Assembly (NCBI RefSeq): GCF_026151205.1
Contig: NC_087083.1
Coordinates: 3,114,536 to 3,178,535 of the forward strand
Length of the DNA stretch: 64,000 nucleotides
Direction of reading: 5' to 3'
Source: Bolinopsis microptera
Taxonomy: Eukaryota > Ctenophora > Tentaculata > Lobata > Bolinopsidae
Shown here: in pieces, positions 374 to 28,669 of the stretch
Position numbering within the stretch: position 1 is the stretch's first letter
Layout of the letters: every line of letters begins with the position of its first letter
The notes under the pieces: generated by a model
Databases searched by the model: none
Told to the model about the DNA's origin: nothing
Seen by the model: only the letters and a program-made list of their open reading frames with translations
Made by a program: the position numbers and the translations under genes

Positions 374-3300
374 TATGGACACTGTATCAGTTTGTTATTT
401 TGACATTACTTTTTATAATGAGCTAAACTCTCCAGAATATACCGGTGGGGAGTATGTATCAGTTTGTTATTTTAACATTACTTTTTATAATGACCTGAAC
501 TCTCCAGAATATACCGGTGGGGAGTATGTATTAGTTTGTTATTTTAACATTACTTTTTATAATGACCTGAACTCTCCAGAATATACCGGTGGGGGGTATG
601 GACACTGTATCAGTTTGTTATTTTGACATTACTTTTTATAATGACCTGAACTCTCCAGAATATACCGGTGGGGGGTATGGACACTGTATCAGTTTGTTAT
701 TTTGACATTACTTTTTATAATGACCTAAACTCTCCAGAATATACCGGTGGGGAGTACACTGTATTAGTTTGTTATTTTAACATTGCTTTTTATAATGACC
801 TGAACTCTCCAGAATATACCGGTGGGGGGTATGGACACTGTATCAGTTTGTTATTTTAACATTACTTTTTATAATGACCTAAACTCTCCAGAATATACCG
901 GTGGGGAGTACACTGTATTAGTTTGTTATTTTAACATTACTTTTTATAATGACCTAAACTCTCCAGAATATACCGGTGGGGAGTATGTATTAGTTTGTTA
1001 TTTTGACATTACTTTTTATAATGACCTGAACTCTCCAGAATATACCGGTGGGGGGTATGGACACTGTATCAGTTTGTTATTTTGACATTACTTTTTATAA
1101 TGACCTGAACTCTCCAGAATATACCGGTGGGGGGTATGGACACTGTATCAGTTTGTTATTTTAACATTACTTTTTATAATGAGCTAAACTCTCCAGAATA
1201 TACCGGTGGGGAGTACACTGTATTAGTTTGTTATTTTAACATTACTTTTTATAATGACCTGAACTCTCCAGAATATACCGGTGGGGGGTATGGACACTGT
1301 ATCAGTTTGTTATTTTGACATTACTTTTTATAATGACCTGAACTCTCCAGAATATACCGGTGGGGGGTATGGACACTGTATCAGTTTGTTATTTTAACAT
1401 TAGTTTTTATAATGACCTAAACTCTCCAGAATATACCGGTGGGGAGTACACTGTATTAGTTTGTTATTTTAACATTACTTTTTATGATGACCTAAACTCT
1501 CCAGAATATACCGGTGGGGGGTATGTATCAGTTTGTTATTTTAACATTACTTTTTATAATGACCTAAACTCTCCAGAATATACCGGTGGGGAGTATGTAT
1601 TAGTTTGTTATTTTGACATTACTTTTTATAATGACCTAAACTCTCCAGAATATACCGGTGGGGAGTTTGTTATTTTAACATTACTTTTTATAATGACCTA
1701 AACTCTCCAGAATATACCGGTGGGGAGTACACTGTATCAGTTTGTTATTTTAACATTACTTTTTATAATGACCTAAATCTCCAGAATATACCGGTGGGGG
1801 GTATGTATCAGTTTGTTATTTTAACATTACTTTTTATAATGACCTAAACTCTCCAGAATATACCGGTGGGGAGTACACTGTATTAGTTTGTTATTTTAAC
1901 ATTACTTTTTATAATGACCTAAACTCTCCAGAATATACCGGTGGGGGGTATGTATCAGTTTGTTATTTTAACATTACTTTTTATAATGACCTAAACTCTC
2001 CAGAATATACCGGTGGGGGGTATGTATTAGTTTGTTATTTTGACATTACTTTTTATAATGACCTAAACTCTCCAGAATATACCGGTGGGGAGTTTGTTAT
2101 TTTAACATTACTTTTTATAATGACCTAAATCTCCAGAATATACCGGTGGGGGGTATGTATCAGTTTGTTATTTTAACATTACTTTTTATAATGACCTAAA
2201 CTCTCCAGAATATACCGGTGGGGAGTATGTATTAGTTTGTTATTTTGACATTACTTTTTATAATGACCTAAACTCTCCAGAATATACCGGTGGGGAGTTT
2301 GTTATTTTAACATTACTTTTTATAATGACCTAAATCTCCAGAATATACCGGTGGGGGGTATGTATCAGTTTGTTATTTTAACATTACTTTTTATAATGAC
2401 CTAAACTCTCCAGAATATACCGGTGGGGGGTATGGACACTGTATCAGTTTGTTATTTTAACATTACTTTTTATAATGAGCTAAACTCTCCAGAATATACC
2501 GGTGGGGAGTACACTGTATTAGTTTGTTATTTTGACATTACTTTTTATAATGACCTGAACTCTCCAGAATATACCGGTGGGGGGTATGGACACTGTATCA
2601 GTTTGTTATTTTGACATTACTTTTTATAATGACCTGAACTCTCCAGAATATACCGGTGGGGGGTATGGACACTGTATCAGTTTGTTATTTTAACATTACT
2701 TTTTATAATGACCTAAACTCTCCAGAATATACCGGTGGGGAGTATGTATTAGTTTGTTATTTTGACATTACTTTTTATAATGACCTAAACTCTCCAGAAT
2801 ATACCGGTGGGGAGTTTGTTATTTTAACATTACTTTTTATAATGACCTAAACTCTCCAGAATATACCGGTGGGGAGTACACTGTATCAGTTTGTTATTTT
2901 AACATTACTTTTTATAATGACCTAAATCTCCAGAATATACCGGTGGGGGGTATGTATCAGTTTGTTATTTTAACATTACTTTTTATAATGACCTAAACTC
3001 TCCAGAATATACCGGTGGGGAGTACACTGTATTAGTTTGTTATTTTAACATTACTTTTTATAATGACCTAAACTCTCCAGAATATACCGGTGGGGGGTAT
3101 GGACACTGTATTAGTTTGTTATTTTAACATTACTTTTTATAATGACCTAAACTCTCCAGAATATACCGGTGGGGAGTACACTGTATCAGTTTGTTATTTT
3201 AACATTACTTTTTATAATGACCTAAACTCTCCAGAATATACCGGTGGGGAGTACACTGTATCAGTTTGTTATTTTAACATTACTTTTTATAATGACCTAA

Positions 3301-6300
3301 ACTCTCCAGAATATACCGGTGGGGGGTACACTGTATCAGTTTGTTATTTTAACATTACTTTTTATAATGACCTAAACTCTCCAGAATATACCGGTGGGGA
3401 GTACACTGTATTAGTTTGTTATTTTAACATTACTTTTTATAATGACCTAAACTCTCCAGAATATACCGGTGGGGAGTACACTGTATCAGTTTGTTATTTT
3501 AACATTACTTTTTATAATGACCTAAACTCTCCAGAATATACCGGTGGGGAGTACACTGTATCAGTTTGTTATTTTAACATTACTTTTTATAATGACCTAA
3601 ACTCTCCAGAATATACCGGTGGGGAGTACACTGTATTAGTTTGTTATTTTAACATTACTTTTTATAATAACCTAAACTCTCCAGAATATACCGGTGGGGA
3701 GTATGTATTAGTTTGTTATTTTAACATTACTTTTTATAATGACCTAAACTCTCCAGAATATACCGGTGGGGAGTACACTGTATCAGTTTGTTATTTTAAC
3801 ATTAGTTTTTATAATGACCTAAACTCTCCAGAATATACCGGTGGGGGGTACACTGTATCAGTTTGTTATTTTAACATTACTTTTTATAATGACCTAAACT
3901 CTCCAGAATATACCGGTGGGGGGTACACTGTATCAGTTTGTTATTTTAACATTACTTTTTATAATGACCTAAACTCTCCAGAATATACCGGTGGGGGGTA
4001 CACTGTATCAGTTTGTTATTTTAACATTACTTTTTATAATGACCTAAACTCTCCAGAATATACCGGTGGGGAGTACACTGTATTAGTTTGTTATTTTAAC
4101 ATTACTTTTTATAATGACCTAAACTCTCCAGAATATACCGGTGGGGAGTACACTGTATCAGTTTGTTATTTTAACATTACTTTTTATAATGACCTAAACT
4201 CTCCAGAATATACCGGTGGGGAGTACACTGTATCAGTTTGTTATTTTAACATTACTTTTTATAATGACCTAAACTCTCCAGAATATACCGGTGGGGAGTA
4301 TACTGTATCAGTTTGTTATTTTAACATTACTTTTTATAATGACCTAAACTCTCCAGAATATACCGGTGGGGAGTACACTGTATCAGTTTGTTATTTTAAC
4401 ATTACTTTTTATAATGACCTAAACTCTCCAGAATATACCGGTGGGGAGTATGTATTAGTTTGTTATTTTAACATTACTTTTTATAATGAGCTAAACTCTC
4501 CAGAATATACCGGTGGGGAGTACACTGTATCAGTTTGTTATTTTAACATTACTTTTTATAATGAGCTAAACTCTCCAGAATATACCGGTGGGGAGTACAC
4601 TGTATTAGTTTGTTATTTTAACATTACTTTTTATAATGACCTAAACTCTCCAGAATATACCGGTGGGGAGTACACTGTATTAGTTTGTTATTTTAACATT
4701 ACTTTTTATAATGACCTAAACTCTCCAGAATATACCGGTGGGGAGTATGTATTAGTTTGTTATTTTAACATTACTTTTTATAATGACCTAAACTCTCCAG
4801 AATATACCGGTGGGGAGTACACTGTATCAGTTTGTTATTTTAACATTACTTTTTATAATGACCTAAACTCTCCAGAATATACCGGTGGGGAGTACACTGT
4901 ATCAGTTTGTTATTTTAACATTACTTTTTATAATGACCTAAACTCTCCAGAATATACCGGTGGGGAGTATGTATTAGTTTGTTATTTTAACATTACTTTT
5001 TATAATGACCTGAACTCTCCAGAATATACCGGTGGGGAGTACACTGTATCAGTTTGTTATTTTAACATTACTTTTTATAATGACCTAAACTCTCCAGAAT
5101 ATACCGGTGGGGAGTACACTGTATTAGTTTGTTATTTTAACATTACTTTTTATAATGACCTAAACTCTCCAGAATATACCGGTGGGGAGTACACTGTATC
5201 AGTTTGTTATTTTAACATTACTTTTTATAATGACCTAAACTCTCCAGAATATACCGGTGGGGAGTACACTGTATTAGTTTGTTATTTTAACATTACTTTT
5301 TATAATGACCTAAACTCTCCAGAATATACCGGTGGGGAGTATGTATTAGTTTGTTATTTTAACATTACTTTTTATAATGACCTAAACTCTCCAGAATATA
5401 CCGGTGGGGAGTACACTGTATCAGTTTGTTATTTTAACATTACTTTTTATAATGACCTAAACTCTCCAGAATATACCGGTGGGGAGTACACTGTATCAGT
5501 TTGTTATTTTAACATTACTTTTTATAATGACCTAAACTCTCCAGAATATACCGGTGGGGAGTACACTGTATCAGATTGTTATTTTAACATTACTTTTTAT
5601 AATGACCTAAACTCTCCAGAATATACCGGTGGGGAGTACACTGTATCAGTTTGTTATTTTAACATTACTTTTTATAATGACCTAAACTCTCCAGAATATA
5701 CCGGTGGGGGGTACACTGTATTAGTTTGTTATTTTAACATTACTTTTTATAATGACCTAAACTCTCCAGAATATACCGGTGGGGAGTACACTGTATCAGT
5801 TTGTTATTTTAACATTACTTTTTATAATGACCTGAACTCTCCAGAATATACCGGTGGGGAGTATGGACACTGTATCAGATTGTTATTTTAACATTACTTT
5901 TTATAATGACCTAAACTTTCCAGAATATACCGGTGGGGAGTACACTGTATTAGTTTGTTATTTTAACATTACTTTTTATAATGACCTAAACTCTCCAGAA
6001 TATACCGGTGGGGAGTACACTGTATTAGTTTGTTATTTTAACATTACTTTTTATAATGACCTAAACTCTCCAGAATATACCGGTGGGGAGTACACTGTAT
6101 CAGTTTGTTATTTTAACATTACTTTTTATAATGACCTAAACTCTCCAGAATATACCGGTGGGGAGTACACTGTATTAGTTTGTTATTTTAACATTACTTT
6201 TTATAATGACCTAAACTCTCCAGAATATACCGGTGCGGAGTACACTGTATCAGTTTGTTATTTTAACATTACTTTTTATAATGACCTAAACTCTCCAGAA

Positions 6301-9300
6301 TATACCGGTGGGGAATACACTGTATTAGTTTGTTATTTTAACATTACTTTTTATAATGACCTAAACTCTCCAGAATATACCGGTGGGGAGTATGTATTAG
6401 TTTGTTATTTTAACATTACTTTTTATAATGACCTAAACTCTCCAGAATATACCGGTGGGGAGTACACTGTATCAGTTTGTTATTTTAACATTACTTTTTA
6501 TAATGACCTAAACTCTCCAGAATATACCGGTGGGGAGTATGTATCAGTTTGTTATTTTAACATTGCTTTTTATAATGACCTAAACTCTCCAGAATATACC
6601 GGTGGGGAGTACACTGTATCAGTTTGTTATTTTAACATTGCTTTTTATAATGACCTAAACTCTCCAGAATATACCGGTGGGGAGTACACTGTATCAGTTT
6701 GTTATTTTAACATTGCTTTTTATAATGACCTAAACTCTCCAGAATATACCGGTGGGGAGTACACTGTATCAGTTTGTTATTTTAACATTACTTTTTATAA
6801 TGACCTGAACTCTCCAGAATATACCGGTGGGGAGTACACTGTATCAGTTTGTTATTTTAACATTACTTTTTATAATGACCTGAACTCTCCAGAATATACC
6901 AGTGGGGAGTACACTGTATCAGTTTGTTATTTTAACATTACTTTTTATAATGACCTAAACTCTCCAGAATATACCGGTGGGGAGTACACTGTATCAGTTT
7001 GTTATTTTAACATTACTTTTTATAATGACCTGAACTCTCCAGAATATACCGGTGGGGAGTACACTGTATCAGTTTGTTATTTTAACATTACTTTTTATAA
7101 TGACCTAAACTCTCCAGAATATACCGGTGGGGAGTACACTGTATCAGTTTGTTATTTTAACATTACTTTTTATAATGACCTAAACTCTCCAGAATATACC
7201 GGTGGGGAGTACACTGTATTAGTTTGTTATTTTAACATTACTTTATATAATGACCTAAACTCTCCAGAATATACCGGTGGGGAGTACACTGTATTAGTTT
7301 GTTATTTTAACATTACTTTTTATAATGACCTAAACTCTCCAGAATATACCGGTGGGGAGTACACTGTATTAGTTTGTTATTTTAACATTACTTTTTATAA
7401 TGACCTAAACTCTCCAGAATATACCGGTGGGGGGTATGTATTAGTTTGTTATTTTAACATTACTTTTTATAATGACCTAAACTCTCCAGAATATACCGGT
7501 GGGGAGTACACTGTATCAGATTGTTATTTTAACATTACTTTTTATAATGACCTAAACTCTCCAGAATATACCGGTGGGGGGTATGTATTAGTTTGTTATT
7601 TTAACATTACTTTTTATAATGACCTAAACTCTCCAGAATATACCGGTGGGGAGTACACTGTATTAGTTTGTTATTTTAACATTACTTTTTATAATGACCT
7701 AAACTCTCCAGAATATACCGGTGGGGAGTACACTGTATCAGTTTGTTATTTTAACATTACTTTTTATAATGAGCTAAACTCTCCAGAATATACCGGTGGG
7801 GAGTACACTGTATTAGTTTGTTATTTTAACATTACTTTTTATAATGACCTAAACTCTCCAGAATATACCGGTGGGGAGTATGGACACTGTATCAGTTTGT
7901 TATTTTAACATTACTTTTTATAATGACCTAAACTCTCCAGAATATACCGGTGGGGAGTACACTGTATCAGTTTGTTATTTTAACATTACTTTTTATAATG
8001 ACCTAAACTCTCCAGAATATACCGGTGGGGAGTATTAGTTTGTTATTTTAACATTACTTTTTATAATGACCTAAACTCTCCAGAATATACCGGTGGGGAG
8101 TACACTGTATTAGTTTGTTATTTTAACATTACTTTTTATAATGACCTAAACTCTCCAGAATATACCGGTGGGGAGTACACTGTATCAGTTTGTTATTTTA
8201 ACATTACTTTTTATAATGACCTAAACTCTCCAGAATATACCGGTGGGGAGTATGGACACTGTATTAGATTGTTATTTTAACATTACTTTTTATAATGACC
8301 TAAACTCTCCAGAATATACCGGTGGGGAGTACACTGTATCAGTTTGTTATTTTAACATTACTTTTTATAATGACCTAAACTCTCCAGAATATACCGGTGG
8401 GGAGTACACTGTATTAGTTTGTTATTTTAACATTACTTTTTATAATGACCTAAACTCTCCAGAATATACCGGTGGGGAGTACACTGTATTAGTTTGTTAT
8501 TTTAACATTACTTTTTATAATGACCTAAACTCTCCAGAATATACCGGTGGGGAGTACACTGTATCAGTTTGTTATTTTAACATTACTTTTTATAATGAGC
8601 TAAACTCTCCAGAATATACCGGTGGGGAGTACACTGTATCAGTTTGTTATTTTAACATTACTTTTTATAATGACCTACACTCTCCAGAATATACCGGTGG
8701 GGAGTATGGACACTGTATCAGTTTGTTATTTTAACATTACTTTTTATAATGACCTAAACTCTCCAGAATATACCGGTGGGGAGTATGTATTAGTTTGTTA
8801 TTTTAACATTACTTTTTATAATGACCTAAACTCTCCAGAATATACCGGTGGGGAGTATGTATTAGTTTGTTATTTTAACATTACTTTTTATAATGACCTA
8901 AACTCTCCAGAATATACCGGTGGGGAGTACACTGTATTAGTTTGTTATTTTAACATTACTTTTTATAATGACCTAAACTCTCCAGAATATACCGGTGGGG
9001 AGTACATTGTATCAGTTTGTTATTTTAACCTTACTTTTTATAATGATCTAAACTCTCCAGAATATACCGGTGGGGAGTACACTGTATCAGTTTGTTATTT
9101 TAACATTACTTTTTATAATGAGCTAAACTCTCCAGAATATACCGGTGGGGAGTACACTGTATTAGTTTGTTATTTTAACATTACTTTTTATAATGACCTG
9201 AATCTCCAGAATATACCGGTGGGGAGTACACTGTATCAGATTGTTATTTTAACATTACTTTTTATAATGACCTAAACTCTCCAGAATATACCGGTGGGGA

Positions 9301-9459
9301 GTACACTGTATCAGATTGTTATTTTAACATTACTTTTTATAATGACCTAAACTCTCCAGAATATACCGGTGGGGAGTACACTGTATCAGATTGTTATTTT
9401 AACATTACTTTTTATAATGACCTAAACTCTCCAGAATATACCGGTGGGGAGTATGGACC
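374..9459. repeat. Satellite array, 72/75/79-bp units, about 120 copies
   Basis: Head-to-tail repeats with the core ccagaatataccggtgggga and tttgttattttaacattac. Three length classes differ only in a short spacer after the ggggag: gtatgtat (72 bp), gtacactgtat (75 bp) and gtatggacactgtat (79 bp). The first part (to about 3.1 kb) mixes all classes and has small deletions; 3.1-9.4 kb is mostly 75 and 72. Since 72 and 75 are multiples of three, frames of 933 and 684 codons stay open by accident; the 79-bp class or a 1-nt deletion closes them. Unit differences include many that change the residue (S/L, T/A, D/E), so there is no sign of selection on a protein. Noncoding satellite is the best call. 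Confidence 0.95.
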
Positions 9460-11226: not shown

Positions 11227-11870
11227 CTGCAAAAAAAGACCAGTTAGTATTTAAACCGCGTAACCTTCTACAATTTGTAAAAAAACATAATATGATAGAG
11301 GAAGTTTATAAACAAAATCTTCCAGGCTATCCCCAAGTTCAATAATTAGTCTCCGTACATGCTGTATTAATATATTTTTCGCTTGGCCCAGTTCCCTTCA
11401 CATATACAAGAACTTCGAAAAATAGTAGCGAGCCTAGTAAATGGTGAACTTAAACGCACAGGCAAAATAATTATATACGATACCAAGGCAAAAATTCTGA
11501 AAAAAAACATGTGGCTAAAAGTAAAAGTACCTTTTTTGGCCTAAATTTTATTAAGATAAAAAATGTTTTTTAACACAATGGCAATATAGTCATTGCACAA
11601 TTACAAGGTAAAAATTGTGCTATAAACAATTATTTACAATTAATTGTTTATAAAGCGTTTGGAATTGGCGGAAATAACTTTTTTAAAGCACAAGTACTTA
11701 TCCTTAATAAACAAATAAGTTTGGCTTAAAGAATTCAGAATTTCCAAAATGGTCTTTGCTTTCAGCAAATTTGTCAAAAAACAACAGTGCTCGCACACTT
11801 GCACATGACAGTGGCCGCGCCATGAAATGCTTAATCAATAATCAGTTTATCATAATGCGCCTGTCGTGTA
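11227..11870. other. Intron or intergenic DNA
   Basis: AT-rich and without convincing codons. An AT hairpin (tataaacaatta / taattgtttata) sits near 11621-11653. If the tail exon belongs to locus 1, this is the 3' part of its last intron. Confidence 0.4.
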
Positions 11871-12060
11871 TGGCGGCCGAGATGGCTCACCAAAATTTTC
11901 ACTGAAAATTTTGAATTAAAAAATTAATCATACAATTAATCGCAAAATAAAAACGATTTTGAATTTGTTTTGTAAAATGATTTTAAAATTTAAATAAAAA
12001 ACGATTTTCATATTGAAATTGAAAACGATTCTCATTTTTAAAACGATTTTTTTTTGTTTT
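11871..12060 (+). repeat. Inverted copy of the AT-rich repeat at 18520-18722
   Basis: It starts with tggcggccgagatggctcac, followed by blocks of aaaacgatttt. It is the near-exact reverse complement of 18722 down to about 18520. The two copies flank LINE-A in opposite orientations. The same head sequence occurs a third time at 18307-18327. It is probably a SINE-like or foldback unit. Confidence 0.65.
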
Positions 12061-12419
12061 ATTGAAAATCTTTTCAAAATAGTACATACATCAATGTAAT
12101 TGCATGAAAATAACACGGTCAAAAAGTGATTTCTATGTACTATAATGACGGGAAACCAGAACGTAGTTCGTGCAAAAATTACACCTACAAAATATGGTCC
12201 CTGACAAAACATTTCATACAATCAACACATATAAATGTAAGATATATAGTAATAGAGATGATTGTGCATTAATAAAATACAGCGTGCATAAAATATCATA
12301 ATGTTAATAATTTGTTAACTTTTTAATGAAATAGATTATATCATACAATACTTTTAAAAACCCAACCCACAACCCAACCCACCCCTAACCCCTTAAATAG
12401 TTTGGATCGGTTATTTTAG
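12061..12419. other. AT-rich stretch ending in the G/T-rich tail of LINE-A
   Basis: No gene is seen. On the minus strand 12362-12400 reads as G-rich pentamer-like repeats (ggggttaggggtgggttggg and further), immediately after the LINE-A 3' UTR. It may be the element's 3' tail or the target. Confidence 0.45.
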
Positions 12420-12576
12420 ATTAGAGAATTGGCATTGGGAGAAATGAGATGCATCTAATCATTATCAGACAGGTAGAATTCAGCGTGACTATCGTTTGGA
12501 TCTGTGGGTAGCATTTCCGACCATAGGTGATCCTTAAGTTTGGCCTTGAAGATATCAGGACAGCTATGGTCTCTTA

Positions 12577-15500
12577 TTAACTTATTTCGAGAGGAAGTTT
12601 ATTCCAGAGCAGATGTGTCCGATAAAAGAATGATTTCTTAAGGAGACTGCTATTACACTGTGTTTGAACAAGAGTCGTTACATAACTTAGGCTGTCATGG
12701 TGACATGATCTTAAGCGTGTGCTTCCTTTGTATAGTTGTAAGTAATTAGGAAGCTCTTGTGTGCATACACCATTGACTATTTTGTGAAACAAGGTCAGGT
12801 CATTCAATTCAAACCTCTTGCTGAGAGGAAGGATTTTCAATTGATGACATTTGTAAGTATAGTTTTCAAAGGACTGATAGCTTGTGAATTCCTCATCAAA
12901 AATCCACTTAATACACCTTTTTTGAAAAGCATCCATCTTATCTAGTTGTGTTTTATTAAATGGACGCCAGATTTGGGAACAGTGTTCAAATTGACTTCTA
13001 ACAAGTGCAAGGTATAAATTTCTTCTTCGTCTCTCATCTTGGACAAATGAGCAAGTGCGTTTCAGCAGCCCAAATTTTTGGTTAGCTTTGGACAATATTT
13101 TAGTTATGTGTTCTTCAAAACGAAAGCCCTGATTTATAACGACTCCAAGATCTGTTTCCGTACTGGTGTAATCTAAGGGAGTATTACCGAGCAAATATTG
13201 AAATCTGATAAATGGAATAGGTAATATCCTACTGCTGAATTTCTTTCCAGGAATAGAGAGGACTTTACACTTTGATGGATGGAATCGCATTTTATTTTCT
13301 ATGCTCCAAGAATTAAGTTCATTTATGTTATTCTGAAGTGTGCAATAATCGTTGTATGATTTAATAGGACTCCATATTTTCGTGTCATCAGCATAAAGTA
13401 CCAAATTTGTGCCTGAACTTAATCTCATGGGAAGATCGTTTATGAATAAGACAAATAGAATGGGACCTAGGACGGAGCCTTGAGGAACTCCAGACAAAAC
13501 AGGTTTGATCTCTGAATGTCTACCATCAACTAAAACACATTGTTCCCGTTCACTAAGATAGTTGGTTAGGAATTTGAGTAGCCTTCCTTCAATATTAAAG
13601 ACGAGTTTAAGTTTCTTAAGAATAAGATCATGATTTACAGAATCAAAGGCTTTAGCAAAATCAAAGCAAATGATGTCTACACTTATAGTCGAACAGTCAT
13701 TGAGGGATAGCGTGACACTGTCAATAAAGTTAATCATATTTGTGGTACAAGATCTGTCTCCAAGAAATCCATGCTGTCTATCATCAAGAAGATGCATTGT
13801 TTTATTCAAGAGTTCCTGTTTAATAAGGCGTTCAAATGTTTTCATTATAAGACTAGTTAGGGAAATCGGCCGATAATTCTCAATGTCCTCCTTACTACCC
13901 TTCTTGTGAACCGGAACTACGTGAGCCAGCTTCCATTCAGTTGGAATAATACCGGAGTTATATGATATCTCAAATAAAATTGAAAGTGGGCAAGCGAGAC
14001 TACCAGCACAGTTCTTCAGTATCTTACCATGGATACCGTCAGGGCCGCAAGCTTTGTTAGAATTAATGTTCCTTAAGAGATGTTTTATATTCTCTGCACA
14101 GAAAGTTAAGTCGAATTCAGTATCACTTCTCCAATCAATATCAATATCATACTTAGATTCGTCAGAAAATTGTTCTGAGAAATACTGATTGAACATATTT
14201 GCTTTGTCTAATGGAGATTCTCTGTATGTTTCTCTAAGGTACATCCTATCCGGTATTCTTGAATTCTTTGAAGAGGATTTTACATGCGACCAGAATTTCT
14301 TTGAGATCAATGCAGGGTCATCATCGTTATATAGATTATCGTTCATCTTCTGATCAGATAGATTTTTGAACTGTGTTCTTAGTGAGCAAAACTTAAAATA
14401 ATCCTTTTGTTGGCCGGTTAGTTTCCACTTTTCATGAGCTCTTTTTTTCTTCAAGTATGCCTCATGGGCCTCTGAGTCAAACCAGGGATTTCTATATGCT
14501 AACTTTAAAGTAATAGTTGGGATATGCTTTGAGATACTTTTCGATATTACAGACTTTAAGGCAAGCCAACAATATTCAGGATCTCCTAGCTTTAAAAACA
14601 TAGCATTCCAGTCAATAGAATTCAAGTCTTCGTTAATGGCCGTCCAGTTTGCCTTCTTAAAGTTGAGAATCTTTCTTTTAGGACATTTAGAATAAGTGAT
14701 TTTTGTAGCAACTTTAAAAGCTATTGGATAATGGTCAGATTTGCAAGCACCGTGACCCTTCAATACCGTAAGATCTCTTACTAAATTTTTACAATTACTC
14801 AAAAGAAGGTCTAGTATGTTACCCTTAACATGTGTAGGACTACTTATACATTGATCTAGATCAAAGTTATGGAATGTTGTAATGAAGTCCTCTTCAATTA
14901 AACTAGAAGGTGTAACAATTCCGTCCTCAGAAAACCAATCTACTCCATTGAGATTAAAATCACCAACGATGAAAAGTTTTTTAGGGCGTTTGCTTGAGTA
15001 GAAAGACTTGATTGTACTGGCAATACTTTCATGGTTTACTGTTCCTAAAGTTCCGACTCTGTAAACCACACAAAAAATGTATTTACTTTCACCTATGTTT
15101 ATTTCAATAGCGGCCATTTCGGACCCCTTACGTACAGACAGTCTTTTGATTTCAGCTTGAATATCAGATCTGATTGCTATCAAGACTCCTCCACCATTTT
15201 TCCTATATTTTTTCGGATTGTTATCATCAGGTGGATGTGATACTTTTGAGCGATCATTTCTAAATACTTCATAGTTAGAGCTTTGAATGACCTCTCTATC
15301 CATTACAGAGTTTTTAAGCCAAGTCTCTGTAAGCAGAATAACGTCAGGATGTGAATCTTCAATATGTGCATTAAGTTCATATATTTTGGATTTATCAAGA
15401 TGAGGTTGCTTACTGTTAAGTTGAGAAAACGGTATCAAGCCTTGAACATTCTGATAATAGACTGATATGTGATTAGGGCCGGGATTAAGCATACTAGGGT

Positions 15501-16038
15501 TTGATATTGCAATAAGCAAGAAGTTTAAGGTCAATAGAAGTAAAATCGACATACACAGAACTTGCCTAGATGTGCTAGTTACTGCACCAAACACTATATT
15601 AGTGGCAGTCAGCCTTTCAACTCGGTATCTCCGACTGAGTCTTTGGTACTGAGTAAAGATGAAGTTCTTAATTGCAAAACCAAAGATATACAGGTATGCA
15701 CAATTAATATGAGACACAAGTGGGAAGGCCTTACTGGTATTAAAGTAGAATCTACTGGGATGAATAAACCTATCAATCTCATTGGACTCTTTCGAGCTTG
15801 TTAAAATCATTCCAATTAGACAAAACATGATGAACAAGTGCAGAACATAGATACCAATGTTAGATGGTCTAGAATTGAAGATAAGTGCATCTTCAAATAT
15901 CCTAGTCCTGATATCCGATCCAAACCTAACCCCCCTACCCCAAGCAGAACTATCCACTTGACAGGAATTCTTTGGTGCTCTAGAATTACAAAAGCAGCCG
16001 ATTCGCATCCTGTAAAGTGTTAGATCGATCATTGTCAA
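12577..16038 (-). CDS. LINE-A ORF2: endonuclease and reverse transcriptase
   Basis: 1153 residues. Residues 1-180 form an unusual N-terminal extension with three hydrophobic stretches (about 63-80, 112-128, 158-178). A PSMLNPGP stretch (181-188) then marks the start of the enzyme part. The APE-type endonuclease covers about 190-445: QNVQG (196-200), TETW (237-240), VVYR (324-327), GDFN (359-362) and SDH (434-436). The reverse transcriptase covers about 690-960: NYRPISL, FDFAKAFDSVNH (from 792), GVPQGSVLGP (850-859) and LYADD (881-885). The C-terminal part is Cys- and basic-rich, typical of CR1/L2-like elements. It nicks target DNA and copies the element RNA by target-primed reverse transcription. 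All catalytic motifs I can check are present. The start could be internal; the first ATG is used because the frame is continuous. Confidence 0.93.
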   Translation of the reverse strand: MTMIDLTLYRMRIGCFCNSRAPKNSCQVDSSAWGRGVRFGSDIRTRIFEDALIFNSRPSNIGIYVLHLFIMFCLIGMILTSSKESNEIDRFIHPSRFYFNTSKAFPLVSHINCAYLYIFGFAIKNFIFTQYQRLSRRYRVERLTATNIVFGAVTSTSRQVLCMSILLLLTLNFLLIAISNPSMLNPGPNHISVYYQNVQGLIPFSQLNSKQPHLDKSKIYELNAHIEDSHPDVILLTETWLKNSVMDREVIQSSNYEVFRNDRSKVSHPPDDNNPKKYRKNGGGVLIAIRSDIQAEIKRLSVRKGSEMAAIEINIGESKYIFCVVYRVGTLGTVNHESIASTIKSFYSSKRPKKLFIVGDFNLNGVDWFSEDGIVTPSSLIEEDFITTFHNFDLDQCISSPTHVKGNILDLLLSNCKNLVRDLTVLKGHGACKSDHYPIAFKVATKITYSKCPKRKILNFKKANWTAINEDLNSIDWNAMFLKLGDPEYCWLALKSVISKSISKHIPTITLKLAYRNPWFDSEAHEAYLKKKRAHEKWKLTGQQKDYFKFCSLRTQFKNLSDQKMNDNLYNDDDPALISKKFWSHVKSSSKNSRIPDRMYLRETYRESPLDKANMFNQYFSEQFSDESKYDIDIDWRSDTEFDLTFCAENIKHLLRNINSNKACGPDGIHGKILKNCAGSLACPLSILFEISYNSGIIPTEWKLAHVVPVHKKGSKEDIENYRPISLTSLIMKTFERLIKQELLNKTMHLLDDRQHGFLGDRSCTTNMINFIDSVTLSLNDCSTISVDIICFDFAKAFDSVNHDLILKKLKLVFNIEGRLLKFLTNYLSEREQCVLVDGRHSEIKPVLSGVPQGSVLGPILFVLFINDLPMRLSSGTNLVLYADDTKIWSPIKSYNDYCTLQNNINELNSWSIENKMRFHPSKCKVLSIPGKKFSSRILPIPFIRFQYLLGNTPLDYTSTETDLGVVINQGFRFEEHITKILSKANQKFGLLKRTCSFVQDERRRRNLYLALVRSQFEHCSQIWRPFNKTQLDKMDAFQKRCIKWIFDEEFTSYQSFENYTYKCHQLKILPLSKRFELNDLTLFHKIVNGVCTQELPNYLQLYKGSTRLRSCHHDSLSYVTTLVQTQCNSSLLKKSFFYRTHLLWNKLPLEIS
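15475..15510 (-). other. 2A-like NPGP remnant inside ORF2
   Basis: Codons for PSMLNPGP follow a leucine-rich hydrophobic run just before the endonuclease domain. This is where APE-type LINEs of several animals carry a D(V/I)ExNPGP ribosome-skipping 2A peptide. NPGP is kept, but the upstream D-x-E is replaced by P-S-M, so skipping is probably weak or lost. Confidence 0.55.
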
Positions 16039-16217
16039 AAATTTAATTCAAATGTAATTTAAAATATGCATACAGCCTACCAGTGTGAACCATTGGGTTG
16101 CACCCTGGCAATTAAAAATCATTTGTGTTAATGAAAACATATTTCAAAATTGTTCAACCCTGAATTGACTCCATTACCGCAGCACAGTAGGTATCAAATT
16201 TTTAATAGAATTGCGGT

Positions 16218-17555
16218 TTAGAAACCAAGAGGATTGAACCATTTTGAATGAATAATAAATATGTAGAATCTTGCAAGAACACCCATGCCTTTATTATTTG
16301 GGTGAATATCAAAACGCTGTTTCTTAGTGTCAAAATGCGGGAAAAGTCTCGTGTTGATGCAGCCCCTAGCATCCAAGAAAGCAGGAAAGATATCTAAGAA
16401 ATAATGCCTATACCGGGAGCACATATTGTAAATCAGATTATTCATTCGAATAACATTTCTCTCAGTAAATTTACAACCATTAGGATTAATTGGAGGAACA
16501 GATTGAAACCATACTTTTGCAGTTGGAAGTATCAACTTTATGGAACTCATTAAACTAGATACCGCACTTTTAAGATGTGCTATTCCATTATCACAGTACC
16601 GTATATCATTAGTACCAACAGACACAAATAATTTAACAACTTCTAAATTAGGGTTATCTTTCACGAATTTCTCGATATCTCTCTTGACCTTATCAAGTTT
16701 ACTGCCTCCAACGGCGATGTTCTTAACTACTTGCTTATTCTTTCCTAACAATTTTTCATCTAATCTAGCAGCAAAAGAGTCCCCAGCAACAAGAACAATC
16801 TTCTGCTTTTTCGTGACTTGTTCATTGACTTGGGATAAATCCACTTGATCCTCTTCAGGAGGTTTAATCTTACGGAACGAGAGACTAAAACGTACTTGTT
16901 CATTTTCACCGACTTTACCAGAATAAACTGCATGTCTCATTTTAGATTGAGCACCAGGTTTCATAATGTTCATGGTTTTATCAGTGGCTGGTAGCACATG
17001 ATCAGGACTATCGCTGTTTTTATTACTATCAAGAACGATTGAAAGTTCTCGTGGTGCACCTAGTGAAACAGTACAAATTGAGCTAGTCTGAGATATGAGT
17101 GGCTCGTTATCACGATGGAGTCGGAGAGTAGACTTGCTCGATGCATAACGAGTTATCAGGCAGGAGTCCATATCACCAGATGTTGAAGGGTGATTGTTAA
17201 CCACTTCCATGAGCTTGCAAAAATTGGGGTAATCGTTTATAGGAATTGGTTTGTTCATAACATGACCATAGTTATAAGAATGAGTGGTCGGACTAAGCCA
17301 CTGAGTAGTGACTGGACGACCCCTCTGTTTTAAGTTAAGAGAGTCAAGCTCTTTTCGGAGGTCATCACAAAGGGTTTTGTCCAAGTTAAGGTCGTTAACA
17401 TGTTCAACAAGGGATACAATGTCATCAGACGAGGCAGTAGATTCTGCAGCAGATTCAGAAGCAACGTCGAGGGTTAGGGCTTCCAACATTGCACGTTTTT
17501 CAGCTAGAGTGGCTGTTTTGAGAAGATCGACGAACACTTTGGGTAATTCTTGCAT
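16218..17555 (-). CDS. LINE-A ORF1: AlkB-like 2OG-Fe(II) dioxygenase domain fused to an SGNH esterase-like domain
   Basis: 445 residues. 1-80: acidic/helical N-terminus. About 85-232: AlkB-like 2-oxoglutarate/Fe(II) fold, with SCLITRYASSK, the iron ligands H147-x-D149 (LHRDNEP) and H208 (MRHAV), and the 2OG-binding pair R222/R228 in RFSLSFR, the same spacing of six as in classic AlkB proteins. About 250-445: SGNH hydrolase pattern, with block I VLVAGDS (nucleophile S260), block II glycine in AVGGS, block III VGTND (314-317) and block V FDIHPNNKG, where Asp and His are one residue closer than the usual DxxH. Esterase-type ORF1 proteins are known in CR1/L2 LINEs; the dioxygenase in front is not usual to my knowledge. 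It could repair alkylated or methylated element RNA or cDNA; that is inference. The frame is intact. Confidence 0.88.
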   Translation of the reverse strand: MQELPKVFVDLLKTATLAEKRAMLEALTLDVASESAAESTASSDDIVSLVEHVNDLNLDKTLCDDLRKELDSLNLKQRGRPVTTQWLSPTTHSYNYGHVMNKPIPINDYPNFCKLMEVVNNHPSTSGDMDSCLITRYASSKSTLRLHRDNEPLISQTSSICTVSLGAPRELSIVLDSNKNSDSPDHVLPATDKTMNIMKPGAQSKMRHAVYSGKVGENEQVRFSLSFRKIKPPEEDQVDLSQVNEQVTKKQKIVLVAGDSFAARLDEKLLGKNKQVVKNIAVGGSKLDKVKRDIEKFVKDNPNLEVVKLFVSVGTNDIRYCDNGIAHLKSAVSSLMSSIKLILPTAKVWFQSVPPINPNGCKFTERNVIRMNNLIYNMCSRYRHYFLDIFPAFLDARGCINTRLFPHFDTKKQRFDIHPNNKGMGVLARFYIFIIHSKWFNPLGF

Positions 17556-17969
17556 TGTTTGTCGAAGTAGGACGCCAGGTGATCAAGGGGCAGATCAGGA
17601 GTACAGCAGTGTCGGCAGGACAACTATCAGTGATCAAAGACCTGGGAAATAAAAGGGCCGAGCAGATCATGTAAATAAAAGGATCAATGACAAAAGAATG
17701 AGAGTGAAGGGAGATCTATGTAGAGTAATAGTTAGTAATGAAAACTATCAATCAAAATGTAAGTGAGCTAGAAAATTGGAAATTGAATAAATGAAGTTAG
17801 AAAACTGACCTTGTTAAGATTTCAGAGATGTCCCAGCCAAGCTGGGACAGAGAATAAAAGACTGCCGTACACCGCTACACTGCCTCACTACCCCCGTCTC
17901 AACCCGGGACACCGGCTGACTTTACTCCAGCGACATTCTGTCCACGAGTGGACCCATCGTCTTAGCCAT

Positions 17970-18330
17970 AATCAATTGAAATCTCAAATTATTTGTTATA
18001 TAGTAGTGTTGAAAGTATTAAAACTTTTGAGTTTGATTTTGAAAACGATATTGATTTTGATTTTGATTTTGATAACGATATTGGTTTTGATTTTAAAAAC
18101 GATATTGATTTTGATTTTAAAAACACCCATCCCAAAATAGCTGAAATCCAGATAGTTAGATGGGCGTGGCCCCTGTGAGTAGCCTGAGTGGGTTGGGAGG
18201 TCGAAACTTGATTTTTCTGATGGTTTGGGACAGGTACTAACTATTTAAACCACTAAACTTGTTCCAAATACCCCGGAACATAAATCCCATACGGCTAATT
18301 AGCTAGCTGAGCCATCTCGGCCGCCACCAA
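17970..18330 (-). repeat. SINE-like unit with tRNA-like head
   Basis: On the minus strand from about 18327 it begins tggcggccgagatggctcag. It then has a possible pol III A box (tggctcagctagc) and, about 35 nt on, a B-box-like tgttccggggta. An unrelated body and an AT-rich tail of roughly 24-bp repeats follow (18004-18133). Boundaries and class are tentative. Confidence 0.35.
18004..18133. repeat. Roughly 24-bp AT tandem repeat, inverted partner at 18354-18560
   Basis: Units of the form gatattgattttgattttga on the plus strand. The reverse complement (aatcaaaatcaatatcgttt) is tandemly repeated at 18354-18560. The two blocks can fold back on each other around the SINE-like unit. Confidence 0.8.
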
Positions 18331-18353: not shown

Positions 18354-18722
18354 ATGGTTTTCAAAATCAAAATCAATATCGTTTTCGAAATCAAAATCAA
18401 TATCGTTTTCGAAATCAAAATCAATATCGTTTTTAAAATCAAAATCAATATCGTTTTTAAAATCAAAATCAATATCGTTTTAAAAATCAAAACCAATATC
18501 GTTATCAAAATCAAAATCAAAATCGTTTTCAAAATCAAACTCAAAATCGTTTTAAAAATGAGAATCGTTTTCAATTTCAATATGAAAATCGTTTTTTATT
18601 TAAATTTTAAAATCATTTTACAAATCAAATTCAAAATCGTTTTTATTTTGCGATTAATTGTATGATTAATTTTTTAATTCAAAATTTTCAGTGAAAATTT
18701 TGGTGAGCCATCTCGGCCGCCA
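18354..18722. repeat. AT tandem block plus AT-rich repeat, reverse complement of 11871-12060
   Basis: Starts after an A12 run. It contains seven or more aatcaaaatcaatatcgttt units, then a nonrepetitive AT part, and ends at 18722 with tgagccatctcggccgcca. Open frames on both strands here are translations of the repeat and are not genes. Confidence 0.75.
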
Positions 18723-18844
18723 TAGTCGTGGTCCAAATGCATGCCTTACCTAGCTGGCACTCCAATCCTTGTGTGCGGCGCTCTTTTAAGCTTCCTGCAC
18801 GTACGTGAGAGTAGCAAACAATAAACTAGCAAACTAGGTAAATA

Positions 18845-23920: not shown

Positions 23921-24171
23921 CTAGGGAGTTTAGCTGAAACCGAAAGATCGAGGCGATCGAACAAGTAGGTACTAACACAATTTTCAGATAGAAATGTTCG
24001 TTGCAATATTATTTTTATTGCAGCTTTGCAACTTGAGCGAAGTAAAGAGCAAAGTACGAAAAAACACAGCAGGCAAGCAACTCATTTTGGTGACTATTCC
24101 TCATTTAACTGCTAACGTTGCACGAGAAATCGATTTTAGTTGGTTTTAAAGCCCAATAACGCTTTTACGCT

Positions 24172-25940
<1,769 letters not shown>

Positions 25941-28669
25941 AATAAGAAAGCGTAAAAGCGTTATTGGGCTGTAAAACCAACTATAATCGATATCTCGTGC
26001 AACGTTAGCAGTTAAATGAGGAATAGTCACCAAAATGAGTTGCTTGCCTGCTGTGTTTTTTCGTACTTTGCTCTTTACGCTCAAGTTGCATAGCTGCAAT
26101 AAACATAATATTGCAACGAACATTTCTATCTGAAAATTGTGTTAGTACCTACTTGTTCGATTGCCTCGATCTTTCGGTTTCAGCTTAACTCCCTAGGTCA
26201 TATCATGAGTAGAACCATAGGATCAAAATATATGTTGCTTGTTGCTCGTATTAACTATAAAATATCAATTTTGAGGGATAAGGAATTGTTTATATGTTCT
26301 GAAACCTAGTTAAATCGATTTTTCGTGCAATTTCTGATCAGAAACAGTCATCAAAATGAGTTAATAAAAAGGTCGATTTCTCGGTAAATTTTGAGTTTTC
26401 GTTCAAATAAATATTTTGCTAAGAAGTAAGAACTTAAAAACGCGCATATTCAATCCTCGCGCGAATAAATCATAAGGAGGCGAATATATTGCTAAGAAAG
26501 CGTAGATTTAACTCTCGCGCAAATAAATTATTATTTGATCAAGTTCGATCAGTTGAGGTGAGGATTGCCTCGATCTTACGGTTTCAGCCCTAGGTCAAGA
26601 GCTGTACTTGTAGAACCGAAGGATCAATACAATATACCTACATGTTGGCGTTGCTTGTTGCTCGTATTAACTATAAAACATAAATTTTGAGGAATAAGGA
26701 TTTGTTTATAGGTTCTGAAACCTAGTTAAATCGATTTTTTGTGCAATTTTAGGTCAGAAACAGTCATCAAAATAGATTAATTAGACGGTCAATTTCTCGG
26801 TAAATTTTGAGCTTTCGTTCAGATAAATATTTTGCTAAGAACTGCACGAACATAAAAAACACAAATTGAATCCTCTCGCAAATAAATTATAAGGTGGCGA
26901 ATATTTCCCTAAGGAAGCGAAGATTTATTTGCGTCGCGCAAATAATTATAAGGATGCGAATATTTTGCTAATAATGCGAAGATTGCATTCTCGCGTAAAC
27001 AAACCAAACAGGGGCGTGCAACGCGCGTCAAACTGTTTGGCAATTATTTTTCCAAGAATGCGCGAGTAAATCGATTTAAAATATTACGGAGTTTAAGTTT
27101 AGAGAGAAACTGGATCATCTGCATATCCATGATTGACGAATTAGTTATTTTACTGTTTACAAACATAACTTAGGTAATTCACAAAAAGTTTTCTTCGAAT
27201 TTGACAAAATAGATTTTTCAATATATTTCCCTGGTGGACTTCAGTGCGTGATCTGAAGGTAGTTGACTTTAGTTCGGGTCAACTTACGGTCATATCACGT
27301 GATCGATGTCATGAGGGGTTATTCGGAATCAGCGTTCGAAAATACACCGATTGAAGTTGGTTTAAACAGTCGGGGGCCCTTGTAGAACAATCTCGAGGCG
27401 TCCATCTCTCAATCTTCAGGTATCCACTGATTTCACAGCAAAAATTTCTGGTCAATAACAGCATGAATCGTATAGCTCTGGGTGAATATATTCGGGGCGA
27501 CGTAAAACGTGCCGTCTGCAATCCAGTTGCTACCATGCCAGCGTAGCAAGGTTCCGGGCTGTAGAGAAGGCAACGACTCGTACATTCCGATCTGTCTTCC
27601 CGCCGAAGATAACAAAGGGCTCGTCCCGTCTCGTGGAGGTGCATGTAGAAGGAAGGAGGAATTCTTCTGAGGTCTTCGCTTCAGAGTGCTGTGCAGATCC
27701 GGACGCCTTGGCTCTACTGCCTTGGGCTGTTCAGCAGCTTTCCGCTTCAGTGCATGCTCGGCTCACATCCTTGGATACGAGAACCAGCCCCTTTTGGACC
27801 TGGCTCACGTCCGTTATGTGAACACATGCCGAGAGCTCAAACACTTCTCAAACACAACTACTTACTAAACTGTCATGTGAATAATATGGATCACATCACA
27901 AATGATACGTCACTGATTGGGCCATGTCATGTGACCTAGCTGTGGGAGGCCGGAATGAGAGGTTCCTAGTTGTCGGTCACCGCTAAGTTCTAACACTAAA
28001 GTTCGCTAGGTAGATTCGCTACTGTCCAATTGTTTAAATTTTGTTGTTTCTAGCGGAGTAAAGTATAAGTCATCTGTCATAGGTACCGCACTCTAGTTCG
28101 GAAAATGATGTTTTGTTAAACAAATCGAAGCGGTTACTGTTAGGTAGGTAGTCGTACTCGTACACAGTTATAATTAACAAGTTAACATCAACTAAAGTTT
28201 AATTGGTAAATATAAACACACTTTAACTTTGAGCGTGTGTTTTAGACCTCATTATAACCGGCATTAGTGCAATAATTCGTACTGTGGTTTGATATTTGAT
28301 GAAGTTTAGATTTTTAACTGCTAACACTATAAAAGTAATCTTTCGCACTACACTGACTACAGTATGTGTCGCACTACAATCCAGGTAGCGAACTCTATTA
28401 TATTCAGTGCGACACAATATCCTATCTTATTTCCAAGTTCAGGTCAGATCCTATCCTTCTTTTGGATTATAAACTCATCAAGTGATTCGTCAGGCCGGTT
28501 CACGTTACTTATTTCGAAGTGATCTTGTGGACGCGATTCGTCGGTCACGTTATGTATTTCGATCCACTGATCATAATTCGGGTCAGTTCAATCCACGTAT
28601 ACAGTATGTGATCCACTGCAGAGTCGTAAGCAGCATATGATCCTAATTCCTATCACAAATGAAGTTATG

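Follow-up and report, generated by a model that had tools for sequence, protein, structure and literature searches.

A Bolinopsis microptera LINE with an ORF1 Fusing an AlkB-Type Dioxygenase Domain to an SGNH Hydrolase-Like Domain

The window, a 64,000-nucleotide stretch of Bolinopsis microptera contig NC_087083.1, was found to carry a recent, multi-copy long interspersed nuclear element (LINE), the first open reading frame (ORF1) of which fuses an AlkB-fold domain with a complete Fe(II)/2-oxoglutarate (2OG) ligand set to an SGNH domain. AlkB domains are on record from certain plant RNA viruses and from an orchid long terminal repeat (LTR) family, as are ORF1s of the esterase type from a number of LINEs. 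In the present genome, young LINEs contain a fusion of the two domains under selection, and AlkB recurs across element classes.

A sequence-only reading had proposed a LINE ORF1 at 16218–17555 with an AlkB-like and an SGNH esterase-like half, and the frame and all of its motifs were found where it had placed them. In the AlkB half, HRDNE (residues 147–151; HxD at 147/149), H208, and RFSLSFR (222–228) provide the iron triad HxD...H and the two 2OG arginines of the AlkB family. The PDB profile search matched ORF1 to ALKBH3 (5.1e-13) and ALKBH2 (2.1e-9), and comparison of the predicted structure using Foldseek agreed, recovering an AlkB-type double-stranded beta-helix; a single-sequence structure prediction was poor (predicted local distance difference test, pLDDT, of 38.1) and was set aside. 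The AlkB profile check suggested with the sequence-only reading thus came out positive for the PDB profiles, and the Pfam part was mixed. PF13532 was matched by six of 12 family members at E ≤ 1 (best 4.4e-17), with L020, L023, and L024 at 56.8–63.4 bits (curated cut-off, 31.2); the window ORF1 alone had no Pfam AlkB match at E ≤ 1, and the PF13532 scan of L018, L026, and L027 gave no match. The unmatched window copy could be taken to favor an artefact, either a chance motif match or a one-off insertion of a host gene. The former was ruled out by the PDB profile matches and the fold comparison, and the latter by at least 103 matches to the ORF1 protein in the genome; as both ORFs are also open in several subfamilies, an artefact is exceedingly improbable.

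The residues H, D, E, H, R, and R were kept in 24 of the 25 distinct loci covering all ligand positions (L007, L008, and L028 were left out of the count because the positions were not covered in one piece); the exception, L015, has W instead of R222. The Fe and 2OG ligands were invariant in the family alignment A1 despite overall identity down to 28%. This conservation bears on whether the AlkB fold is merely a nucleic-acid-binding module replacing an RNA recognition motif (RRM). The excerpted text of PMC3905857 describes esterase-type ORF1 proteins (ORF1ps) as having no structural RNA-binding domain, and the AlkB half could thus also bind RNA. With the ligands intact across such divergence, a purely non-catalytic role is highly improbable.

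The SGNH half was confirmed by Pfam (Lipase_GDSL_2, 2.7e-12; 48 bits against a cut-off of 32.9) and by the PDB profile match to the esterase of ZfL2-1 ORF1p (4c1b, 2.2e-9). It contains GDS (258–260, with Ser 260), GTND (314–317), and DIHPN (416–420), and S260, G284, N316, and H418 are invariant in A1. The Asp of DIHPN stands at −2 relative to the SGNH His, while an Asp at −3 is lacking in 11 of the 12 members and present in L026 only. The Asp of this DxxH pattern is common in SGNH hydrolases, yet it is not among the four block letters. As 11 members lack it, the fold and the four block residues are taken as given here, but hydrolase activity is not.

The identification as a LINE ORF1 also held, since ORF2, encoding an endonuclease (EN) and a reverse transcriptase (RT), lies downstream on the same strand (Table 1), the element is multi-copy, and its 3′ end is A-rich, AATAAAA(n). 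Both ends are common to L009 and L011 and the 3′ end also to L010, which lacks approximately 164 bases of the 5′ region; the aligned parts are 99.18–99.32% identical. In the PDB, the RT matched R2-type, retron-type, and group II intron RTs as well as a further reverse transcriptase-like protein. The LINE was inserted inside one copy of an inverted repeat, with pair I1 joining 11869–12050 to 18543–18724 (99%) and pair I2 joining 18029–18124 to 18453–18548 (90%); as I1 and I2 abut at 18543–18548, an uninterrupted copy of the inverted repeat lies at approximately 18453–18724. In a check for target-site duplication, the flank matches overlapped by at most 6 bp, in A-rich sequence.

Table 1. Features of the AlkB–SGNH LINE and its 3′ flank in window coordinates.
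Feature	Position	Strand	Remarks
Full-length LINE, ~5.97 kb	12052..18026	-	End positions good to within a few bases; L009 and L011 have the same ends
ORF1, 445 amino acids (aa), AlkB and SGNH	16218..17555	-	ORF list, ATG start
Helical N-terminus of ORF1, residues 1–40	17436..17555	-	Model helices 6–14 and 17–36; low confidence at 1–3 and 32–41
AlkB-type 2OG-Fe(II) dioxygenase domain, ~residues 41–234	16854..17435	-	Fe ligands H147, D149, H208; 2OG arginines R222, R228
SGNH/GDSL hydrolase domain, residues 250–438	16242..16808	-	S260, G284, N316, H418
ORF2, EN-RT, 1153 aa as listed	12577..16038	-	~180 aa N-terminal extension with hydrophobic stretch and NPGP
ORF2 endonuclease region	14719..15375	-	Exo_endo_phos and Exo_endo_phos_2 (7.4e-10), Pfam
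ORF2 reverse transcriptase, YADD	13255..13905	-	RVT_1 1.3e-30, Pfam
5′ untranslated region	17556..18026	-	Element ends compared across copies
3′ flank, part of repeat hosting the LINE insertion	11869..12050	.	Inverted pairs I1, I2

The ORF1 matches in the genome (264.65 Mb, 232 contigs) formed subfamilies at approximately 100, 52, 48, 44, 38, and 33% identity, with stops in the 44% group; part of the matching loci was retrieved for closer reading. A COX1 search of this assembly found nothing although its control was matched in 8 of 14, so a mitochondrial contig seems to be missing; GFP and Chitin_bind_4 searches were likewise empty, as were their controls. ORF1 and a long ORF2 were both open in L011, L018, L020, L021, L023, L025, and L026, and Pfam, applied to six of the seven loci (L021 excepted), confirmed EN and RT in every one of the six. 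For L020 against L022 and L023, the ratio of nonsynonymous to synonymous substitution rates (dN/dS) was 0.17 and 0.16 in AlkB, 0.10 and 0.10 in SGNH, and 0.50 and 0.50 in the linker; in eight closer pairs (overall dS of 0.04–0.11), that of AlkB was 0.14–0.34. Both domains are under purifying selection. The ORF1 and ORF2 trees disagreed on the placing of L018, L013, and L027 next to the window element, with some low supports, and no exchange of ORF1 is claimed. The window ORF1 is one residue shorter than that of L002–L004, and, counted from the same MIDL start, the window ORF2 falls 38 codons short of the L011 ORF2. The N-terminal extension of ORF2 (approximately 160–185 aa), with its hydrophobic stretch followed by NPGP, was kept in all nine aligned ORF2s, two pairs of which are near-copies, and is reminiscent of a membrane anchor or of a 2A site in degenerate form.

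AlkB was not confined to this family. A PF13532 search of the genome (265 Mb), in which 150 of 587 candidates were scored, gave at least 151 matches. Among a few examples retrieved per frame-length class, no fewer than four LINE groups and one Helitron carried AlkB. Besides group A, that of the window element, group B (L033, L035, and L037) has AlkB, an SGNH-like domain, and then EN-RT (EN only in the retrieved part of L037), and its profile matched that of group A at a probability of 97.5 (E 7e-12). In group C (L036 and L040), AlkB is followed by a long middle part, Ser-rich and coiled-coil, and by a candidate SGNH domain, for which the assignment is weak (0.0079 in L036; L040 is incomplete); L036 also shows RT. 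In group D (L038 and L039), AlkB precedes an SGNH-like domain (2.2e-5 in L038; no Pfam SGNH match in L039) and then EN-RT. L044 has AlkB, after which the retrieved stretch ends. RT cores were 33–37% identical between A and B, 25–26% between A and C, and 28–31% between A and D (L039), and at only 25–37% identity these are distinct LINE groups; the comparison excluded A_L020, A_L025, D_L038, and X_L016, in which the start motif was not found, and the B_L035 slice starts at an earlier chance match. In the Helitron (L032 with L053), a frame of 3388 aa contains SGNH (6.7e-6), AlkB (3.7e-21), and DUF6570, then Helitron_like_N (5.6e-23) and PIF1 (4e-22). The order is thus AlkB–SGNH in the LINEs and SGNH–AlkB in the Helitron type.

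The SGNH partner is firm in three, supported in one, and weak in one of the five element groups. None of the SGNH scores of the retrieved groups B–D and L032 reached the Pfam cut-off, which other D-type (676 aa) and Helitron-type (3226 aa and others) frames did reach in the genome search. By coordinate matching, at least 12 of 150 SGNH matches had a same-strand PF13532 match within 2.5 kb (eight SGNH-first and four AlkB-first), and adding the ORF1 LINE family brought the paired matches to at least 68 of 150. This count is a floor because frames of the 478–479 aa class are as long as that of L026, an AlkB-bearing locus unmatched by PF13532; the remaining 82 SGNH matches include classes left unread. 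One class of SGNH match, with frames of 426 aa (e.g., C8:7962741), had no listed AlkB match nearby in the coordinate comparison. The dN/dS of AlkB in the other groups was 0.051 (C), 0.119 (B, at a dS of 1.9, near saturation), and 0.121 and 0.183 (Helitron). At 3735–4235 of L032, a small ORF that shortly precedes the AlkB–SGNH ORF of the Helitron contains a canonical-looking 2A motif, GDVETNPGP. A PHD/C1-like zinc finger opens the LINE ORF2 before EN-RT in L016 (1515–4976), L039 (1–2265), and L038 (1–2670), as read from weak Pfam matches below the cut-off in L016 and L039 and by eye in L038.

In a 24-domain AlkB tree, one branch (91/91, not starred by the tool) separated the 18 rows from elements from the six cellular rows. 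RxSx[ST]xR was present in all 18 element AlkBs and RxNLTFR in all six cellular ones. This fits a single lineage of element AlkBs, although near-copies and long branches weaken the case, as does the sampling, and the Ser could be convergent. The tree excluded human proteins, viral AlkBs, most eukaryotic AlkBs, and phage_L050, which had no match in the motif search; L034, L041, and L042 were called host-like from the 1.0–1.6 kb of sequence around each. An ALKBH2 or ALKBH3 orthologue was rejected as the identity of the ORF1 domain, given RFSLSFR in place of RxNxTxR and the same split. In an approximately unbiased (AU) test, a group of the LINE AlkBs and L044 excluding the Helitrons was not rejected (p 0.126). 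Using tblastn, in collections that included no eukaryote set, no relatives were found in viral contigs with the window ORF1 protein or alignment A1, or in genome contigs with A1. All 39 plasmid records fell in the AlkB half, as did eight of the 10 phage records, the other two falling in the SGNH half; no record matched 80% of the query at a single site. One reading, slightly likelier to be wrong than right, is that AlkB and SGNH form a transferable two-enzyme cassette kept in several LINE groups and in Helitrons of one genome, in either order and with an element-specific RxS signature; it would then be a general module for dealkylation, exchanged between retrotransposons and rolling-circle transposons.

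The sequence-only reading knew of no such pair as a standard ORF1 layout. Among the matches listed by the open-access search, the scope of which did not extend to preprints, most subscription papers, or Repbase, no LINE or Helitron with AlkB was reported. In CR1/L2 LINEs with a type IV (esterase) ORF1, such as that of ZfL2-1 (4c1b), ORF1 likewise places SGNH upstream of EN-RT, but AlkB is not named in PMC3905857 or PMC4120745 (zero occurrences), and the N-terminus is, in the excerpted text, a coiled coil or a zinc finger/leucine zipper. The nearest precedents, as far as their excerpts go, are the orchid Gypsy AlkB (PMC9289625) and the fungal TET/JBP transposons (PMC12730594). In Phalaenopsis, a Ty3/Gypsy retrotransposon likewise captured and retained an AlkB-type domain, for which N6-methyladenosine (m6A) demethylase activity was demonstrated in vitro; however, it is an LTR element with a separate, ALKBH5-like ORF, and no SGNH partner is mentioned in the excerpts (PMC9289625). 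In fungi, a dioxygenase is shared across 11 DNA transposon lineages including Helitrons, but it belongs to another dioxygenase family, and none was found in retrotransposons there, according to the excerpts (PMC12730594). Plant RNA viruses are also genetic parasites with AlkB domains; Foldseek matches to named RNA-virus proteins (3.6e-13 and weaker) were to polyproteins or replicases, mostly 15–22% identical. Human ALKBH3 and ALKBH2 share the fold and the Fe/2OG ligands of the ORF1 AlkB, whereas ALKBH3 has RxN and the element AlkBs RxSx[ST]xR.

We consider it somewhat probable that ORF1p is a two-enzyme ribonucleoprotein component whose AlkB half clears RT-blocking methyl groups from the RNA or complementary DNA (cDNA) of the element. 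The sequence-only reading had suggested mark removal acting on host epitranscriptomic defense; the removal is supported, with RNA/cDNA dealkylation favored, and the counter-defense becomes a rival. Translated ORF1p would bind its own mRNA in cis, and its esterase half may, as has been suggested for ZfL2-1 ORF1p, handle contact with membranes or lipids. The AlkB half would oxidatively strip methyls on the Watson–Crick face (N1-methyladenosine, m1A; 3-methylcytidine, m3C; perhaps 1-methylguanosine, m1G), and may also provide the nucleic-acid binding otherwise lacking in esterase-type ORF1ps. Target-primed reverse transcription, with EN and RT supplied by ORF2, would then read through the demethylated template. 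Of three base methylations treated in the excerpts of PMC8053708, AlkB removes two and its D135S variant the third.

Several points weigh against this reading. The RxNLTFR of cellular ALKBH2/3-like proteins became RFSLSFR, and the substrate class may thus differ. The AlkB domain also occurs in a Helitron, so aiding RT cannot be its only use, and single-stranded DNA may be a substrate too; Helitrons are DNA elements, in which we know of no RT step. Dealkylase activity, substrate, and expression are all inferred, and m1A/m3C on host LINE RNA is an assumption.

It is unlikely that the AlkB half instead erases m6A from element RNA in the manner of FTO or ALKBH5, so that silencing or sequestering by host readers is avoided: neither protein turned up in the PDB search at E ≤ 1, HxD[DNG]E is nearer to ALKBH3, and m6A is reported to favor human L1 in the excerpts of PMC7873242. 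Slightly less probable still is DNA-side repair, in which the domain would remove 1-methyladenine/3-methylcytosine (1meA/3meC) or N6-methyladenine (6mA) from single-stranded DNA, be it cDNA, the target site, or the Helitron single strand. LINEs and Helitrons both have a single-stranded DNA stage, the ALKBH2/3 structures among the structural matches are DNA complexes, and AlkB shares a frame with Helitron_like_N and PIF1; however, ORF1ps are thought to bind RNA. The fusion in this LINE and the similar pairs in other mobile elements of the genome suggest that these elements may be equipped to rid their own nucleic acid of methyl marks. The results make testable whether mobile elements bring an eraser of their own that keeps RNA/cDNA copyable or hidden from host marks, and offer a natural set of RxS-type AlkB domains for assay.

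Elsewhere in the window, a 24-bp periodic AAAATC-type stretch lies beside the inverted repeats at 11869–12050 and 18543–18724 (99% complementary). A satellite array of approximately 75-bp units occupies 379–9453, with pieces of approximately 450 bp being 88–98% alike. Very strong strand asymmetry was observed at 24001–26000 (GC skew of 0.391 and AT skew of 0.592), probably reflecting a purine-rich simple repeat.
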